Below are positions 28,804-37,879 of a DNA stretch of 64,000 bases, in pieces. Each line of letters starts with the position of its first letter. Within the stretch, counting starts at the first letter, position 1. Below the pieces are notes generated by a model. The model was not told the DNA's origin, did not search any database, and was given only the letters and a program-made list of their open reading frames with translations. The translations under genes were made by a program, and so were the position numbers. Source of the DNA: Klebsiella electrica. GTDB lineage: Bacteria > Pseudomonadota > Gammaproteobacteria > Enterobacterales > Enterobacteriaceae. Where the stretch lies: contig NZ_CP041247.1 of the NCBI RefSeq assembly GCF_006711645.1, positions 5,146,001 to 5,210,000 on the forward strand, given 5' to 3'.

Positions 28804-30015
28804 TCAGAGGGTACGGAGTCGTGCGTTTGCCTGTTCAAAATCAGGCATGTTGGATGCCCCTTCTAGTTCAACAGCCAGAGAGGCGAAGGCGGAGGCCCAG
28901 GTTGCGGCCTGCACCAGACTGTTTCCGGCGGCAAGCGAGGCTGCCAGCGCACCGTTAAAAGCATCGCCAGCACCGGTGGTATCCACGGTGACGGCAGGGA
29001 AAGCGCGTATATGACTGAACTGGCGATTATCCAGCAGCAGCGCGCCGCGCGACCCCATGGTAATCAGCACTTTTTTAGCCCCCAGTCCGGCAATACGTAG
29101 GGCCGCTTCTTTTGCCGTATCAAGATCGTTGATCTCGATACCCGATAATAAAGAGGCCTCCGTTTCGTTTGGCGTAATCACATCAACGAAGGGGATGCTG
29201 GGAATAATTTCGGCAGAATAGGGCGCTGGATTCAGAATGACCCGTTTACCCAGATCGTGAGCTATCTTAATGATCGAATGAGTGGCATCGAAATTATTCT
29301 CCATCTGAACTAATAAAACATCAGATGAAGATAACTCCGGAACGATTGCCTGGATTTCACTATGGGTAATAGTTGTATTAGCCCCAGAATAAATAGCGAT
29401 CATATTTTCGCCATTCTCCTGAGAAACGTAAATAATCGCATTACCAGTTGGCTCACTCTCAGACTGATAAAGCGTGTAAGAGTGAATTGCCGAGCGCGTT
29501 AAATGATCTGCCGCTAAATTACTGAACTGATCTTTACCCACCTTGGCGACAAAATGCACCTGAGCGCCTGCTTTACTGGCAGCCGTTGCCTGGTTTGCCC
29601 CTTTCCCGCCCGGCCCCAGGCTGCTACCAAGCGCCATTATCGACTCGCCGCCCCTTGGGAAGCGCTCAACTTTAGCCACAATATCAACATTGAACGAGCC
29701 AAATACACATACCTTACCCTGCATAAACTTTCCTTTCTTTCGCTCATCACCTGGTGATTTTCGGTGATTAACAGGTTGCAGCAGCACCTCAAAACTATCA
29801 CCGGTTTCAGATATAAGTTCGGCCTGCAAACTACGCCGTAATATAATGGCCCCGCCATAACAGCGCTGCACCAGCCCCATATCTGCAAGAGTATTCAAAT
29901 CACTACGTATCGTTTCTTTAGTGACATTAAAATGAGCCGAGAAATAATTCACATAGCCACGTTCATGCTCATCTAAATATCGCAAAATAGACTTTCTACG
30001 TTCTTCAAGAAACAT
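28804..30015 (-). CDS. DeoR-type HTH domain fused to ribokinase-like kinase
   Basis: From ATG 30015 the protein has 403 residues. Residues 1-60 form a DeoR helix-turn-helix (LEERRKSILRYLDEHERG and VTKETIRSDLNTLADMGLV). A linker of about 35 residues follows, then a PfkB/ribokinase domain with GGKGANQATAASKAGA, NPAPYSAEI, TPNETEA and the catalytic TTGAGDAFNGALAASLAAG. The effector domain of classical DeoR proteins is missing; the kinase takes its place. This suggests a kinase that senses its own substrate and controls the operon. An internal ATG at 29724, with AGGAAAG upstream, would yield a 306-residue kinase alone. DNA here is visibly AT-richer than the flanks. Confidence 0.87.
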   Translation of the reverse strand: MFLEERRKSILRYLDEHERGYVNYFSAHFNVTKETIRSDLNTLADMGLVQRCYGGAIILRRSLQAELISETGDSFEVLLQPVNHRKSPGDERKKGKFMQGKVCVFGSFNVDIVAKVERFPRGGESIMALGSSLGPGGKGANQATAASKAGAQVHFVAKVGKDQFSNLAADHLTRSAIHSYTLYQSESEPTGNAIIYVSQENGENMIAIYSGANTTITHSEIQAIVPELSSSDVLLVQMENNFDATHSIIKIAHDLGKRVILNPAPYSAEIIPSIPFVDVITPNETEASLLSGIEINDLDTAKEAALRIAGLGAKKVLITMGSRGALLLDNRQFSHIRAFPAVTVDTTGAGDAFNGALAASLAAGNSLVQAATWASAFASLAVELEGASNMPDFEQANARLRTL

Positions 30016-30195
30016 AATTAACCCCGATATCACCATTGCAGTATACGAACCACCCAAGGGTGGAAGAGTGACATCAATCCCATGTTTCCAGACAAAACGG
30101 AAGCAAACAAAAATGACAAGAAGGGGTGAACAGAAAGAGAGATTCCGGGTTCTGTAGGGTGTAAAATAATATATGCCATTAATATATTTAACGGC

Positions 30196-31914: not shown

Positions 31915-32469
31915 TCAACCTGGCGTCTGCTGAATCCACTCCGACAGCCTGACAATATCCAGCGGCTGCTGTTGATCCACCGTGAAGACCGGGCCGAGTC
32001 GCATCGGCTCAGCCCGTTCAGCCAGCAGGGCAAGCTCCGGCAGATATTCTTCTCCGGGATGGCCCGCCCGACGATCCTGCAGGCGCGTGGCATAGCGTGA
32101 CACCGCCAGTTCAGGAGAGATGTGATTCCAGATCTCAACCACTTTCTCAACCCCCGCCTGATGCAACAACCGTTGCAGGGTCTCCCGAGGCTGGAAACCG
32201 AACCAGGCGTCGATTAACCAGATAACGTTGGCTGGCGAATGGCCGATGATCGACCAGATAGCCTCGTAGGCCGCGCATCCCAGCTGACGGTTAAAAGGCC
32301 GATCGATGTCGGTAAAGCACGCCATAAACGGCTCTTTAATCTCATCAATGGTCAGGAGCGGCAGGCCAAAGGTTTGCGCTAGCGCCTGGGCTATCGTGCT
32401 CTTTCCCGAAGCGGGGACGCCGTTAATTAAGATAACGGTTTTACAACCGGCAGTGAGATGTCTGTTCAT
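31915..32469 (-). CDS. P-loop kinase-like protein of the PTS cluster
   Basis: The 184-residue protein has a Walker A motif, INGVPASGKSTIAQALAQ (GVPASGKST at residues 17-25). It resembles small-molecule P-loop kinases of the AAA_33/zeta-toxin-like group. The only partner information is context: its start overlaps the PTS IIA stop by 4 bases, so it is the last gene of the PTS operon. It could phosphorylate the pathway sugar or an intermediate. Substrate and function are not known. IS1 upstream may reduce its expression. Confidence 0.75.
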   Translation of the reverse strand: MNRHLTAGCKTVILINGVPASGKSTIAQALAQTFGLPLLTIDEIKEPFMACFTDIDRPFNRQLGCAAYEAIWSIIGHSPANVIWLIDAWFGFQPRETLQRLLHQAGVEKVVEIWNHISPELAVSRYATRLQDRRAGHPGEEYLPELALLAERAEPMRLGPVFTVDQQQPLDIVRLSEWIQQTPG

Positions 32470-32903
32470 AACAACGCAATCACCTCTTCTCTGGTACTGG
32501 CGGCGCGGAGCCTGGCCATGGTTTGGTTATTGTCCAGCAGCGCCACAATCGCCCGAATGCCTTCTTCAATATGCGCATTGCTATCCTGCGCGCCGAACAT
32601 AATGACGATATCCGCTCTGTCGCTGCCGGCAAATTGAATCGGTTTATCTAATACCACCAGACTGAAGCAGTTTCGCTTCACGCCGCATTCCGGTCTGGCA
32701 TGTGGAATAGCAATGCCCTCTTCGAATACGTAATAAGCACCATGATTGAGCGTATTATCAATAACCGCTTTACTATAACTCTCAGAGAGATACCCGTTCG
32801 CCACCAGGGGGCTGGCGGCCAGCTCAATCACCCTGCGCCAGTCAGACTCCATCACGCCGACCTGAATGGCATCGGCTTCAATCAGCAAATCTTTTATGGT
32901 CAT
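32466..32903 (-). CDS. PTS IIA component, ascorbate/fructose type
   Basis: The 145-residue protein has the IIA(Man/Fru/Asc) fold pattern. The phosphoacceptor histidine is His68 in FEEGIAIPHARPECGVK. It accepts phosphate from HPr and passes it to IIB. Unusually, it is separated from IIB and IIC by the aldolase and a small gene. IS1 lies about 130 bases upstream in the preceding gene, so transcription from the main promoter is probably disturbed. Confidence 0.9.
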   Translation of the reverse strand: MTIKDLLIEADAIQVGVMESDWRRVIELAASPLVANGYLSESYSKAVIDNTLNHGAYYVFEEGIAIPHARPECGVKRNCFSLVVLDKPIQFAGSDRADIVIMFGAQDSNAHIEEGIRAIVALLDNNQTMARLRAASTREEVIALL

Positions 32904-33024
32904 TACGCCTCCCTAGATATTGCGGCGAATAATATTGCGTAACTCATCAATCCGAATAAATAGCGCGTCGATATCCTGACGATGTATTTTGCTTTTAGCA
33001 TACACCGATAGCGCCCGGTTATAC

Positions 33025-33033
33025 TTCAGCATC
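33025..33033. repeat. IS1 target-site duplication, left copy
   Basis: The 9 bases ttcagcatc stand directly before the IS1 left end and again directly after the right end (33802-33810). A 9-base duplication is typical of IS1 insertion. Confidence 0.97.
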
Positions 33034-33088
33034 GGTGATGCTGCCAACTTACTGATTTAGTGTATGATGGTGTTTTTGAGGTGCTCCA

Positions 33089-33364
33089 GTGGCTTCTGTT
33101 TCTATCAGCTGTCCCTCCTGTTCAGCTACTGACGGGGTGGTGCGTAACGGCAAAAGCACTGCCGGACATCAGCGCTATCTCTGCTCTCACTGCCGTAAAA
33201 CATGGCAACTGCAGTTCACTTACACCGCTTCTCAACCCGGTACGCACCAGAAAATCATTGATATGGCCATGAATGGCGTTGGATGCCGGGCAACCGCCCG
33301 CATTATGGGCGTTGGCCTCAACACGATTTTCCGCCATTTAAAAAACTCAGGCCGCAGTCGGTAA
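33089..33364 (+). CDS. insA: IS1 protein InsA
   Basis: The 91-residue InsA begins [18 protein letters not shown], with a zinc-finger-like cysteine set (CPSC, CSHC) and a helix-turn-helix ([20 protein letters not shown]). Alone it binds the IS1 ends and represses transposition. A -1 frameshift at AAAAAAC joins it to InsB to give the transposase. Confidence 0.97.
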
Positions 33365-33786
33365 CCTCGCGCATACAGCCGGGCAGTGACGTCATCGTCT
33401 GCGCGGAAATGGACGAACAGTGGGGATACGTCGGGGCTAAATCGCGCCAGCGCTGGCTGTTTTACGCGTATGACAGGCTCCGGAAGACGGTTGTTGCGCA
33501 CGTATTCGGTGAACGCACTATGGCGACGCTGGGGCGTCTTATGAGCCTGCTGTCACCCTTTGACGTGGTGATATGGATGACGGATGGCTGGCCGCTGTAT
33601 GAATCCCGCCTGAAGGGAAAGCTGCACGTAATCAGCAAGCGATATACGCAGCGAATTGAGCGGCATAACCTGAATCTGAGGCAGCACCTGGCACGGCTGG
33701 GACGGAAGTCGCTGTCGTTCTCAAAATCGGTGGAGCTGCATGACAAAGTCATCGGGCATTATCTGAACATAAAACACTATCAATAA
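33283..33786 (+). CDS. insB: IS1 protein InsB (transposase C-terminal part)
   Basis: The 167-residue frame contains the DDE-type catalytic domain, with [15 protein letters not shown] and [16 protein letters not shown]. It is normally translated as InsAB' by programmed -1 frameshifting from insA rather than from its own ATG. Both frames appear intact, so the element should be able to transpose. Confidence 0.95.
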
Positions 33787-34025
33787 GTTGGAGTCATTAC
33801 CTTCAGCATCAATGCCTTCTGGATCTCACCATTACCAGGCTCGCCCTGTAGTTCATTTTCCAGCGTTTTTATTTCTTCAGCCAGTTCGCGGGACAGCCGA
33901 TCATAATCCTGCGGCGGATGATGCTCTTTTTTCCACAACGCTTTCAGTGATTGAAACATAATCTTCTCCCGCCCTGACGGGTGCAGGGCTAACCTGGTCA
34001 TGACAATTTATTATTGCGGATTTAA

Positions 34026-34868
34026 CTATTTAAATAATGCCATTTTTTCCATCAGTACCTGGGTGACCGCATTATTGGCGGGAATTAAAAACTTACGCAC
34101 GCTGTCATTCACCTTGCCTTTTTCAAAAGTGGTTTTACATTGGTCAACCCACTGCACATTCATTTCTGTCCCCACATTAACCTTATTAATCCCTTCGCTC
34201 ACCGCTTTACGCATATCCTCATCGCTGACGCCGGTACCGCCGTGCAGCACCAGCGGCACACCCGTAGCCCGGCTAATCTCCTGAAGGCGCTGATGCTGAA
34301 TCTGCGCCTTGCCGGTATAAAGGCCGTGCACGGTGCCGACGGAGACAGCCAGCATGTCAACCTGAGTCTCATTCACGAAGCGCGTGGCGTCCTCGACGGT
34401 GGTAAAACAGATATCTTCTGCGGCAACGGCTTTACCATCTTCTGATCCCCCGATGGCACCCAGCTCGCCTTCAACGGTAATATTCCGTGGCCGCGCCATT
34501 TCCACCACAATCCGCGTATTACCGATATTCTCCTCCAGCCCCAGGTGTGAGCCGTCATACATGACCGATGAAAATCCGGCATTCATGGCCGTTTCAATCG
34601 CGCTGATATCAGAACAGTGATCCAGATGCAGACAGGTTGGCACATTTTCACTTTCCGCCAGAGAGCGAACCGCATCCACCAGTAAACGATAGCCAAGATA
34701 TTCCGCCGTACCGGTCGAGATTTGAATCATTAATGGGCTATGGCTCTTTTGCGCGGCTTTAAAAAAGGCCGGCAGCATTTCGATACAGTGCAGATTAAAT
34801 GAGCCAATAGCTTTGTAATTTCTTTGCCGGGCGATTTTCAGAATATCGTTGAAATTATACAGACTCAT
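34026..34868 (-). CDS. Class II ketose-bisphosphate aldolase
   Basis: The 280-residue zinc-dependent aldolase belongs to the GatY/KbaY/FbaA group. Zinc ligands and catalytic residues are in LHLDHCSD (Asp83, His84), VGTVHGLY (His181) and PLVLHGGTG (His209). The C-terminal NVGTEMNVQW binds substrate phosphate. It cleaves a ketose 1,6-bisphosphate or similar compound to triose phosphates. The start overlaps the IIC stop by 14 bases, so coupling is likely. Substrate may be tagatose, fructose or another ketose bisphosphate. Confidence 0.9.
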   Translation of the reverse strand: MSLYNFNDILKIARQRNYKAIGSFNLHCIEMLPAFFKAAQKSHSPLMIQISTGTAEYLGYRLLVDAVRSLAESENVPTCLHLDHCSDISAIETAMNAGFSSVMYDGSHLGLEENIGNTRIVVEMARPRNITVEGELGAIGGSEDGKAVAAEDICFTTVEDATRFVNETQVDMLAVSVGTVHGLYTGKAQIQHQRLQEISRATGVPLVLHGGTGVSDEDMRKAVSEGINKVNVGTEMNVQWVDQCKTTFEKGKVNDSVRKFLIPANNAVTQVLMEKMALFK

Positions 34869-36222
34869 GAATATTTTCCCCTTTCGACTTAGATGATGTA
34901 CCGTTTACGAACCATGCCAGTGCGGCGACAAAAACAATAAACAAGGCGACAAATAACCAGTTATTCTGCAAGGCATGGCCTAATACCAGACCCGAACTAA
35001 TGACATCGGAATCACTGAATGTGACGCCGGTAAAACCATAGCTTTCAAGCATCGGGACCAGAATGGCGGGCAGGAAAGTAATAAACAGGCCGTGAACCAC
35101 ACCGCCAATCATTGCTCCGCGACGTCCGCCCAGCGCATTACCAAAGACCCCCGCCGTACCGCCGGCAAAGAAGTTGGTTAACAGTCCCGGGAGGATCATC
35201 GCCAGGCCAAACATCGGGAAGACCAGCATGCCGATTATCGAACCCACGGTCGTCGCCAGGAACCCCACGATGACCGCGTTAGGGGCATAAGGGAACAGCA
35301 CGGGGCAGTCCAGCGCCGGTTTCGCATCCGGCACAATACGCATGGCAATACCGCGAAAGGCCGGGACCAGTTCATTCAGCAATAAGCGCACGCCGCTGTA
35401 GAGGACAAAGACCCCTGCCACAAACTGAACAGACTGCATAAAGGCATACATCAGGTAGTTGACGCCGCCGGAAAAGCGGGCGACATACTCCGGTCCGGCC
35501 GCCAGCGCCGGGATCAGGTACATGGGGACCATCACCACCGCCATGGCGAGATAGGTATCCTGCAGAAACTTGAAGTTATCAGGCAGTTCAAGATCTTCGG
35601 TTGAGCGGGAGCCTTTACCCACCACTTTAGCCACCGCCGCCTGGACTAAATATCCGATGGTGCAAAAATGCCCGAGAGCCACATCGTCAGAATCGGTAAT
35701 GCGTCTGACCACCGGCTGCGCCAGCGCCGGCATCAGTACCGCCATAACGCCGCCAAAGACACCGCCGGTCAGGATCAGCGGCAGCCCGGTCAGCCCGGCT
35801 TTGTAGCCAATCACCGTGCCAATCGTCGCCATCCACAGCAGCGCCTGCCCGGTGAGGAAGATATATTTCAGCGGCGTCAGACGGGCGATAATAATGTTAA
35901 CGGCAAAGATAACCATCAGCGTTAACGCTACTTCAGAACCCAGTTCCCGATTCGCCAGACCCGCGATAGCGGCAACATCGGTGATATACCCCTTCATCCC
36001 GAAACCGTGGGTGAAGATATCGTTAAGGAAGCTCAGGGTAGCGACAATAATATTAATGCCGGCCATCATAATTAAGAATCCGAGCAGCGTTTTAAACGTC
36101 CCCTCGACTATTTTACCCACTGACTTCTTCTGTAAGATCAGACCCAGCATGGCAATAAATGCGATTAATATCGAAGCCTGGCCGAGCAAATCTTTAACAA
36201 TAAACTCGATAAAGCTATTCAT
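34855..36222 (-). CDS. PTS IIC component, ascorbate (UlaA/SgaT) family
   Basis: The 455-residue membrane protein has about 11 hydrophobic segments and the UlaA-like pattern: GQASILIAFIAMLGLILQKK near residue 14, ALTLMVIFAVNIIIARLTPL near 99, GHFCTIGYLVQ near 186. UlaA-type IIC proteins translocate the sugar during phosphorylation. The neighbourhood has no ula decarboxylase or epimerases, so ascorbate is an unlikely substrate. The start overlaps IIB by 8 bases. Confidence 0.9.
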   Translation of the reverse strand: MNSFIEFIVKDLLGQASILIAFIAMLGLILQKKSVGKIVEGTFKTLLGFLIMMAGINIIVATLSFLNDIFTHGFGMKGYITDVAAIAGLANRELGSEVALTLMVIFAVNIIIARLTPLKYIFLTGQALLWMATIGTVIGYKAGLTGLPLILTGGVFGGVMAVLMPALAQPVVRRITDSDDVALGHFCTIGYLVQAAVAKVVGKGSRSTEDLELPDNFKFLQDTYLAMAVVMVPMYLIPALAAGPEYVARFSGGVNYLMYAFMQSVQFVAGVFVLYSGVRLLLNELVPAFRGIAMRIVPDAKPALDCPVLFPYAPNAVIVGFLATTVGSIIGMLVFPMFGLAMILPGLLTNFFAGGTAGVFGNALGGRRGAMIGGVVHGLFITFLPAILVPMLESYGFTGVTFSDSDVISSGLVLGHALQNNWLFVALFIVFVAALAWFVNGTSSKSKGENIHESV

Positions 36223-36529
36223 GGTCGGCCACCTTGAGGTTGCGCTCTTTCAGGAATGAGACAATTTTCCGTTCAATTTCATCTTTATCCGTAAGTTTAT
36301 TAAGGACCACCACGCGCTTTATTTCCTCTTCATTAGCGTCAGCGGTTAATATGTCGGCAAATGTTTTTTGCGTCAAAATAATATCGGATTTGAACGCTCC
36401 GGCTTCAGATACAGTTGTGTGTTCAATATGTGCAGGGATTTCCAGTTTCTTTAATACTGCTTTCGCCGTCATTTCGATGGCAAAGCTTGAACCGAGGCCG
36501 CAGCCACATACGCAAAGAATTTTCAGCAT
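36215..36529 (-). CDS. PTS IIB component, ascorbate type
   Basis: The start at 36529 gives 104 residues. The phosphocysteine loop CVCGCGLGSSFAIEM has Cys8 in the place of the UlaB active cysteine (AVCGNGQGSS). IIB takes phosphate from IIA and passes it to the sugar bound to IIC. Two further cysteines flank the site, which is uncommon. It overlaps IIC and follows the PFK-like gene by 11 bases. Confidence 0.9.
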   Translation of the reverse strand: MLKILCVCGCGLGSSFAIEMTAKAVLKKLEIPAHIEHTTVSEAGAFKSDIILTQKTFADILTADANEEEIKRVVVLNKLTDKDEIERKIVSFLKERNLKVADHE

Positions 36530-36540
36530 GTAGGGTCTCC

Positions 36541-37521
36541 TCAAATGATATTGAGTTGTTTGGCAAGTTTATAATGATGTCCTTCGATATCTACCAGACG
36601 TTTTTTCATACTGACTAAATCAATTGGAATAGGTTTATTGCTTGAATTTATAATAATCGCTTTATTTTTCATTCCTGACTGAATACAGCGAACGACTTCA
36701 TTCGCCATGATCGTCCCCTGGTAAATCTCTTCGCAGGTCGGGTCGCCGCTGCGCAGTCCATAGCCGATGATGGTTTTACGGATGCGGACACCGATGCGTG
36801 GCTCAAGCTGCTTGATCATCGTATCGATAGCCCCTTGAAAGCCAGGGGAATACTCCCTGGTATAGCCTTCAGAGCAAAGAATCACTACGCTGTTTTGCTC
36901 GCGAAGCTTACGTCTGACGCGCTCGGCCAGATCGTCTAATGGCATCTGTGCTTCCGGAATCAGCGCAATATCGGCATTACTTTTAATCGCTGACTGCAAC
37001 GTGAGTTCCCCGCAATACCCTCCTAATATTTCAGCCATAAACACCCGCCCAGGTAATGCTCTACCGGTATTTCTTAAACGGGAAACCTCCTTGATAATTT
37101 GTTCGCAGGCTGTCGAAAAACCGATAGTATAATCACTACCATATACATCATTATCGATAGTCATGCCGACACCGAAACAGTTAATGTCAAATTCGCTAAG
37201 TGTATTAAGGAACTGTAGGCTACCATCGCCACCAGCCATAATTAACACATCAAGGCGCAGCGACTTAATTTTCCTGGCTATCGCTTCATACTCATTCCTC
37301 AGCAATTTGCGAGTGGTTCTTCCGGATGTAATAACAGGCAGTGAACAAATAGAGAAATCAACGAGATCCCGCCAGGCGATTTCCTGGTGATTTTTGTCGA
37401 GCAATCCAGGTATACCACCATTAAATATGGTGATTTCCGCGCTCGCCAGTTTCGCAACCTGAAAAATAAAATTATTAATTCCGGACACATCGCCACCGCT
37501 AATAACAATACCGATTTTCAT
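36541..37521 (-). CDS. Divergent PfkA-family sugar-phosphate kinase
   Basis: The start at 37521 gives 326 residues that align along PfkA: VISGGDVSGINNF (residue 6), AGGDGS (96), catalytic TIDND (121-125), ILGGYCGELTLQ (166) and GLRSGDPT (255). ATP-type Gly is kept in GGDG. However, the arginine of GRYCGD that binds the substrate 6-phosphate is Gly168, and the arginine of the PVPYDR stretch is also absent. Arg257 is kept. The enzyme is thus probably a functional kinase with altered substrate. It heads the PTS operon and follows two CRP-like sites. A regulatory, inactive role is the alternative. Confidence 0.87.
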   Translation of the reverse strand: MKIGIVISGGDVSGINNFIFQVAKLASAEITIFNGGIPGLLDKNHQEIAWRDLVDFSICSLPVITSGRTTRKLLRNEYEAIARKIKSLRLDVLIMAGGDGSLQFLNTLSEFDINCFGVGMTIDNDVYGSDYTIGFSTACEQIIKEVSRLRNTGRALPGRVFMAEILGGYCGELTLQSAIKSNADIALIPEAQMPLDDLAERVRRKLREQNSVVILCSEGYTREYSPGFQGAIDTMIKQLEPRIGVRIRKTIIGYGLRSGDPTCEEIYQGTIMANEVVRCIQSGMKNKAIIINSSNKPIPIDLVSMKKRLVDIEGHHYKLAKQLNII

Positions 37522-37879
37522 GATCACCACCGTCATATTTCCTTGCCCACATTTATCCCTAAGTTCAAGACCTGTATTTGCAATGAAGATCACATAATTA
37601 TGATTAATTTATCCGTAGTAACGATTGACAGATATAAATATGAGGTGTTTTTTGTGATCGGAATCTCATTTAAAAGATGAGATCGTCTTAACAGTTATTT
37701 TCAAATAACTTTATTATTCATCAGGTTAAATATTAAGAGGATAGCGCGTCATTTTGCTTACCGGGGGTTTAATGGCGGCGCGAAAAACAAAGAAGAGAAA
37801 CGTGATAAATACCACATTTTTTTACGCAGAAGTGGCGAAGTCGGGCGGAGAGATCTGATGGCCGAAGCAGAAAAACAAA
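37522..37879. promoter_or_regulatory. Control region of the PTS operon with two CRP-like sites
   Basis: This stretch of about 360 bases holds no gene I can support. Two CRP-like sites are visible: on the minus strand TGTGA-N6-TTGCA (37579-37594), and TGTGA-N6-TCTCA (37653-37668). A hairpin ATCTCAT/ATGAGAT (about 37663-37681) adjoins the second. The DNA is AT-rich. Catabolite control of the operon starting at 37521 is a reasonable inference. No regulator gene is adjacent. Confidence 0.55.

Follow-up and report, generated by a model that had tools for sequence, protein, structure and literature searches.

A conserved Ula-type phosphotransferase operon in Klebsiella electrica with a predicted role in the breakdown of a ketose-like sugar

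Seven closely packed genes of Klebsiella electrica, located at positions 31,915 to 37,521 on the minus strand of a 64,000-nucleotide stretch of its 5.79 Mb genome (contig NZ_CP041247.1; hereafter the window), are interpreted here as an operon that would degrade a ketose-like sugar under control of cyclic AMP and its receptor protein CRP, a reading to which we assign a probability of roughly 55%. From first to last, the genes encode a PfkA-like protein, the IIB and IIC components of a phosphotransferase system (PTS), a class II aldolase, a small protein, a IIA component and a P-loop kinase (Table 1). Overlaps of 8 bp (IIB/IIC), 14 bp (IIC/aldolase) and 4 bp (IIA/kinase) and remaining gaps of 11, 66 and 9 bp, together with the Pfam and NCBIfam matches, bear out a preliminary description of the window that had listed seven same-strand, closely packed genes of these families. 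In the proposed pathway, the Ula-type PTS (IIA-IIB-IIC) would import a ketose-like sugar and phosphorylate a terminal hydroxyl to give a ketose monophosphate, a kinase would then presumably phosphorylate the opposite end of the sugar, and the aldolase would cleave the resulting ketose bisphosphate to yield two triose phosphates, which feed into glycolysis. As the constant partner of the aldolase clade, the P-loop kinase appears more likely to be the general second kinase, and the PfkA-like kinase would be a gammaproteobacterial addition acting on the same or a related phosphosugar.

Relatives of the operon were found by searching genome contigs with the aldolase alone, and the best 80 loci were kept, the nearest named relative among these being Raoultella ornithinolytica (aldolase 98% identical). 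All of the 40 best loci (L006-L045; aldolase identity 59-98%) carry the other six genes in the same order and on the same strand, in support of the earlier suggestion of a catabolic operon. Gut, plant and marine bacteria are among them, and they represent Raoultella, Klebsiella, Kluyvera, Mangrovibacter, Phytobacter, Serratia, Buttiauxella, Citrobacter, Superficieibacter, Cedecea, Pantoea, Chimaeribacter, Vibrio, Celerinatantimonas and another Enterobacterales bacterium, with a few frames of other operon genes split in L030, L038 and L040. As the flanking genes vary between genera, the operon acts like a cassette; matching by aldolase places it in 12 of 20 same-genus genomes (the window's own included) and in 24 of 295 genomes of the family. 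One Klebsiella pneumoniae record of 5.37 Mb that is classed as a plasmid (L193, CP125156.1) has the operon downstream of fdnG, with no coding sequence listed for the PfkA-like and aldolase genes in a gene table known to be incomplete. In Celerinatantimonas, another IIA-IIB-IIC set, belonging to the same families, lies approximately 2.8 kb upstream of the operon (L045:1324-3278).

A profile search with the small protein identified homologues in Lactobacillales among the 120 matches listed of 603, with homologues in 31 of 295 Lactobacillales genomes; a phylum sample around genome G312 gave homologues in two of 398 genomes, G312 itself and one weak match. The 32 lactobacillalean loci read (L046-L048 and 29 regions) all belong to a sister operon encoding a PRD regulator/IIA fusion, IIB, IIC, a protein of approximately 135 residues resembling tetratricopeptide repeat (TPR) proteins, the aldolase and the P-loop kinase, which is complete (six genes) in 30 loci and ends at contig edges in the other two. 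Megaplasmids of Enterococcus raffinosus and E. gilvus carry this operon under names that include tetratricopeptide repeat protein, class II fructose-bisphosphate aldolase and ATP-binding protein. Exemplified by K5P74_RS14140-14115 on E. raffinosus plasmid pCX012922, the sister operon resembles the gammaproteobacterial one in its IIA, IIB, IIC, small TPR-like protein, class II aldolase and P-loop kinase, but differs in the PRD/Mga regulator fused to IIA, the lack of a PfkA-like gene, the longer small protein and the gene order. Of the 32 known carrier genomes, 20 were searched, and in all 20 the sole phosphofructokinases (PFKs) are 25-28% identical to the PfkA-like protein. The contig of one sister locus (L047, from G312) is titled Sedimentibacter, but its genome is listed in the order to which an Enterococcus genome belongs, and the L047 IIB, IIC and aldolase share 87-92% identity with the L046 counterparts; the contig may be mislabelled or misbinned.

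Phylogenetic analysis of the aldolases used 37 gammaproteobacterial sequences, leaving out L030, L038 and L040 (split frames), and 31 of the 32 lactobacillalean loci, L188 having no aldolase on its contig. In a tree of these and all distant loci, with Escherichia coli FbaA as outgroup, the gammaproteobacterial and lactobacillalean aldolases, five distant loci linked to a kinase, and locus L060 form one clade with a support of 1.0. Support for the gammaproteobacterial aldolases alone is 0.33 in this tree, and an earlier midpoint-rooted tree gave a clade of gammaproteobacteria, Firmicutes and three distant loci a support of 0.306. The five kinase-linked loci (two Oceanobacillus, two clostridial metagenome-assembled genomes and a Trichococcus) are those among the 37 more distant loci of the best 80 (L049-L085) that have a P-loop kinase of the same family nearby; L060, the sixth distant clade member, has only 2.2 kb of contig after the aldolase. 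The 31 distant loci that fall outside the clade showed no such kinase, several of them lying on short contigs (L052, L075, L076, L077 and L083 among them). The P-loop kinase thus accompanies the aldolase clade in every examined system with enough flanking DNA. An Oceanobacillus locus (L049) has the pair beside a mannose-type PTS, two dehydrogenases and a PfkB kinase, and a clostridial metagenome-assembled genome (L054) has it beside an ATP-binding cassette (ABC) transporter and a GmhA-like SIS isomerase. As the importer varies while aldolase and P-loop kinase stay, these two enzymes form the constant core. The preliminary description had suggested a second phosphorylation before aldol cleavage; that the PfkA-like protein carries it out is not established, since the sister operons lack this protein and the P-loop kinase tracks the aldolase clade; among the systems compared, the PfkA-like gene was found solely in gammaproteobacterial operons.

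The P-loop kinase has the characteristics of the AAA_33 type, with a P-loop and a nucleoside monophosphate kinase-like fold, and the closest solved structure likewise belongs to a putative kinase. We know of no kinase of this P-loop fold that serves a phosphosugar step in ketose catabolism. We propose tentatively, at somewhat less than even odds, that the aldolase clade and this dedicated kinase family constitute an undescribed two-enzyme core of sugar degradation. The kinase would be a phosphosugar kinase, the aldolase would have a distinct specificity, reflected in a Gly at the position of FbaA Asp288, and in Gammaproteobacteria and Firmicutes the pair would have been joined to importers of three kinds, namely a Ula-type PTS, a mannose-type PTS and an ABC transporter with GmhA-like isomerase. 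The Ula-type versions would in addition have a small helical protein as a new accessory factor.

The aldolase scores above the cut-offs of the class II ketose-bisphosphate family (PF01116, 303.7 bits vs 25.5; TIGR00167, 267.2 vs 215.6) but below those of the equivalog and subfamily models TIGR01858 (225.1 vs 443.55), NF009374 (255.8 vs 383), NF009375 (181 vs 542) and TIGR01859 (294.2 vs 343.05), such that none of the GatY, KbaY or FBA cut-offs for tagatose- or fructose-1,6-bisphosphate aldolases is reached. All 37 gammaproteobacterial tree sequences retain the metal and catalytic residues, namely three His and the catalytic Asp, at the positions aligned with FbaA. Counterparts of FbaA Ser61 and Arg331, the C6-phosphate contacts, are likewise kept in all gammaproteobacterial (37/37) and lactobacillalean (31/31) aldolases. 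The Gly at the Asp288 position is found in all 73 operon-type aldolases; in 32 other aldolases, labelled as without the kinase, this position is Asp in 20, Gly in three and another residue in nine. Together, these residues would favour as substrate a bisphosphate unlike fructose bisphosphate in stereochemistry or size.

Support for the proposed scheme also comes from the phosphorylation, P-loop, PFK and aldolase motifs, each found in 40 of 40 relatives: C[GC].G.GSS in IIB, PHA in IIA, GGDGS and T[IV]DND in the PfkA-like protein, HLDH and HGGTG in the aldolase, and the P-loop motif in the kinase. The kinase alignment leaves out L034. The PfkA-like protein belongs to the PFK superfamily (PF00365, 204.3 bits vs a cut-off of 30.9), falls under all listed NCBIfam PFK cut-offs (TIGR02482, 160.5 vs 371.35; NF002872, 203.3 vs 253) and retains the basic residues that serve as substrate-phosphate binders in E. 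coli PfkA. On these grounds it is regarded as a probable active phosphosugar kinase with altered specificity. The IIC component groups with the EIIC-GAT (SgaT/UlaA-like) permeases (PF03611, 410 bits vs 24.2; NF009551, 827.7 vs 657). A further EIIC-GAT permease lies in another Ula-type cluster of the same genome (L238, G000:C1:3494500-3506500), with two frames resembling split transketolase halves and a IIA gene downstream (transketolase and IIA recognised by eye).

Regulation was assessed in 41 upstream regions of 250 bp (the window and its 40 relatives) against Markov-sampled shuffles. The best CRP-like site of the 250 bp lies at -142 to -155, counted from the first start codon, in 39 of the 41 loci and at -172 in L007 and L011; with the search restricted to -170..-130, sites with at most one mismatch of ten were found in 31 loci. 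The best site scored better than shuffled sequence (P<0.05) in 31/41 loci. A second CRP-like element follows at a spacing of 74 bp in 36 loci and 75 bp in two, and in the host genome its degenerate pattern is matched exactly at this place alone. The fixed 74-bp spacing suggests a CRP-controlled catabolic promoter, and conservation of the paired sites suggests cAMP-CRP regulation of the operon. A box located midway between them is perhaps the site of a further regulator (Table 1). Within the window, no regulator or isomerase gene directly adjoins the operon, so the earlier statement that an adjacent regulator is missing stands at this locus; in the Lactobacillales, however, a PRD regulator is fused to IIA, and two conserved CRP-like sites precede the gammaproteobacterial operons.

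Several observations weigh against the proposed pathway. The PfkA-like gene is absent from all sister-operon loci read in Lactobacillales, and comparison of the window and 12 relatives with the host PfkA indicates changes at three pocket segments (PGT, MGR and GHIQRGG to GMT, LG[GA] and G[YF].LR[SN]G), so that this protein could have another role. Proteins of the P-loop kinase fold act on many substrates, and the kinase may instead phosphorylate the aldehyde released by the aldolase, or be non-metabolic. The Ser61 and Arg331 counterparts also occur in 25 and 26, respectively, of 32 other aldolases and are not specific; being this common, they point to a bisphosphate but not to which bisphosphate. 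The top-scoring CRP-like site fails to exceed shuffles at P<0.05 in 10 of the 41 loci, and Vibrio and Celerinatantimonas have a poorly matching second element, with two mismatches in L043 and four to seven in the other five loci.

The substrate may be a known ketose (D-tagatose, L-sorbose, D-allulose or D-fructose), with the operon an extra isofunctional route, an explanation that overlaps the proposed pathway and that we consider possible, though clearly less probable. The closest known logic is that of the D-tagatose pathway of Klebsiella oxytoca and Bacillus licheniformis, where tagKTH acts with gatY and PTS uptake, a phosphosugar kinase and a class II bisphosphate aldolase are combined as they are here (PMC10101011). 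Unlike that pathway, the operon combines a Ula-type PTS with both a PfkA-type protein and a P-loop kinase, encodes a small helical protein, and has an aldolase that scores under the GatY and KbaY cut-offs, a shortfall that, with that for FBA, argues against a known ketose. The tagatose pathway uses a different PTS and a PfkB-type kinase. Psicose (allulose) is served in K. pneumoniae by a different permease locus (PMC6020474). In agreement with the earlier remark that no characterised pathway has this composition, no such operon was found in open-licence PubMed Central full texts, which mostly do not include subscription papers. The galactitol (gat) and N-acetylgalactosamine (aga) pathways are similar in that gat has a transporter of the EIIC-GAT superfamily and GatY/KbaY fall within the same broad family of class II aldolases, but the seven genes include no dehydrogenase, deacetylase, isomerase or GatZ/KbaZ subunit of the kind that belong to those pathways.

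A ketose-1-phosphate route is somewhat less probable again. Here, the PTS would make a ketose 1-phosphate that the aldolase cuts into dihydroxyacetone phosphate and an unphosphorylated aldehyde, the P-loop kinase would phosphorylate this aldehyde in the manner of a triokinase, and the PfkA-like protein would be an alternative branch. This would account for kinase and aldolase travelling together without a PfkA-like gene, and the invariant Gly at the Asp288 position suggests that the enzyme probably recognises the sugar moiety differently from fructose-bisphosphate aldolase. However, a monophosphate would not need the fully kept Ser61 and Arg331 equivalents, and the presence of a PfkA-family protein in 40/40 gammaproteobacterial operons suggests a phosphosugar substrate.

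A second system for ascorbate or a close derivative is very unlikely because the genome has a separate ula locus encoding the lactonase, IIA, IIB, IIC, both epimerases and UlaR; the preliminary description had also judged ascorbate unlikely. The operon shares the IIA, IIB and IIC families of ulaABCDEF, its IIC passes the ascorbate IIC cut-off (NF006919), and ascorbate models rank best for IIA and IIB, though far under their cut-offs; yet the IIC scores much higher on the separate family NF009551, and aldolase and kinases stand in the place of the UlaG lactonase, UlaD decarboxylase and UlaE/F epimerases, none of which is among the seven genes. To our knowledge, a fructose-bisphosphate-type aldolase has no place in the ascorbate route. 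Least probable of all is that the genes are accidental neighbours, scattered in relatives, or a decaying remnant. In favour of this reading, the window copy is broken by an insertion sequence and the operon is missing by aldolase match from 8/20 same-genus and 271/295 family genomes, but 40/40 loci keep the order despite different flanks, with motifs and upstream sites conserved.

The preliminary description had also proposed that the small-protein gene is split by IS1, which a 768-bp element with 9-bp target repeats confirms. This IS1 is 97.9-99.6% identical to the 20 listed matches, annotated as IS1A/IS1B. Across 5,426 complete E. coli genomes searched at megablast sensitivity, no place reaches 80% query coverage; coverage is 14% at the best-ranked places, and all 20 listed are IS1 (9,541 more records unlisted). 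The small gene has 89 codons in R. ornithinolytica and is an uninterrupted frame of 87-103 codons in all 40 relatives, and unbroken copies of the operon occur among these. IS1 probably reduces expression of the IIA and kinase genes downstream, and the operon is probably impaired in this strain. The gammaproteobacterial small protein (that of L006) matched no Pfam model at E 0.001, the seven lactobacillalean homologues scanned reached TPR models solely below cut-off, and fold matches were weak. The small three-helix protein may play an accessory part, perhaps by partnering the aldolase or the kinase. Elsewhere in the window (28804-30057, minus strand), a 417-codon frame combines an N-terminal DeoR-like helix-turn-helix (by eye, no sensor domain) with a ribokinase-like PfkB domain, scoring slightly under the TIGR02152 cut-off.

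Table 1 Features of the operon and its upstream region, in window coordinates
Feature	Position	Strand	Evidence or remark
First gene: PfkA-family protein (PF00365; 326 aa), probably a phosphosugar kinase	36541..37521	-	Pfam E 3.2e-60
PTS IIB	36215..36529	-	PF02302 E 1.6e-9
PTS IIC, EIIC-GAT family (SgaT/UlaA-like)	34855..36222	-	PF03611 E 1.4e-122
Class II ketose-bisphosphate aldolase	34026..34868	-	PF01116 E 1.8e-90
Small helical protein gene, IS1-split	33959-32913	-	Homology to intact gene in L006
Small gene, 5' part, up to IS1	33802..33959	-	Homology to intact L006 gene
IS1, 768 bp, within small gene	33034..33801	+	Imperfect terminal inverted repeats; IS1 matches
9-bp direct repeats flanking IS1	33025-33033 and 33802-33810		
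Small gene, 3' part, one 9-bp repeat copy included	32913..33033	-	Position and stop codon by L006 comparison
PTS IIA (EIIA_2 family)	32466..32903	-	PF00359 E 4.8e-28
P-loop small-molecule kinase (AAA_33-like), last gene	31915..32469	-	
Upstream CRP-like site, -147 from first start codon	37653..37668	-	1/10 mismatches
CTGTCAAT box midway between CRP-like sites	37624..37631	-	By eye, in most Enterobacterales upstream sequences, uncounted
Second CRP-like element, TGTGA-N6-TTGCAAAT	37576..37594	-	74 bp downstream of first; 0-1 mismatch of 12 in 34/41 loci
Possible -10 hexamer, class II CRP spacing	37552..37557	-	3-4/6 consensus matches in 35/41 loci; weak, without control

The operon represents a self-contained catabolic cassette that is widespread in Klebsiella, Raoultella, Serratia, Pantoea and Vibrio, with a sister form in enterococci. 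Database labels such as 6-phosphofructokinase, fructose-bisphosphate aldolase and AAA family ATPase keep it hidden. The pairing of aldolase and kinase, together with the small protein, gives testable functions to three uncharacterised families, and the cassette may mark a nutrient of gut or plant niches that is missing from pathway maps.

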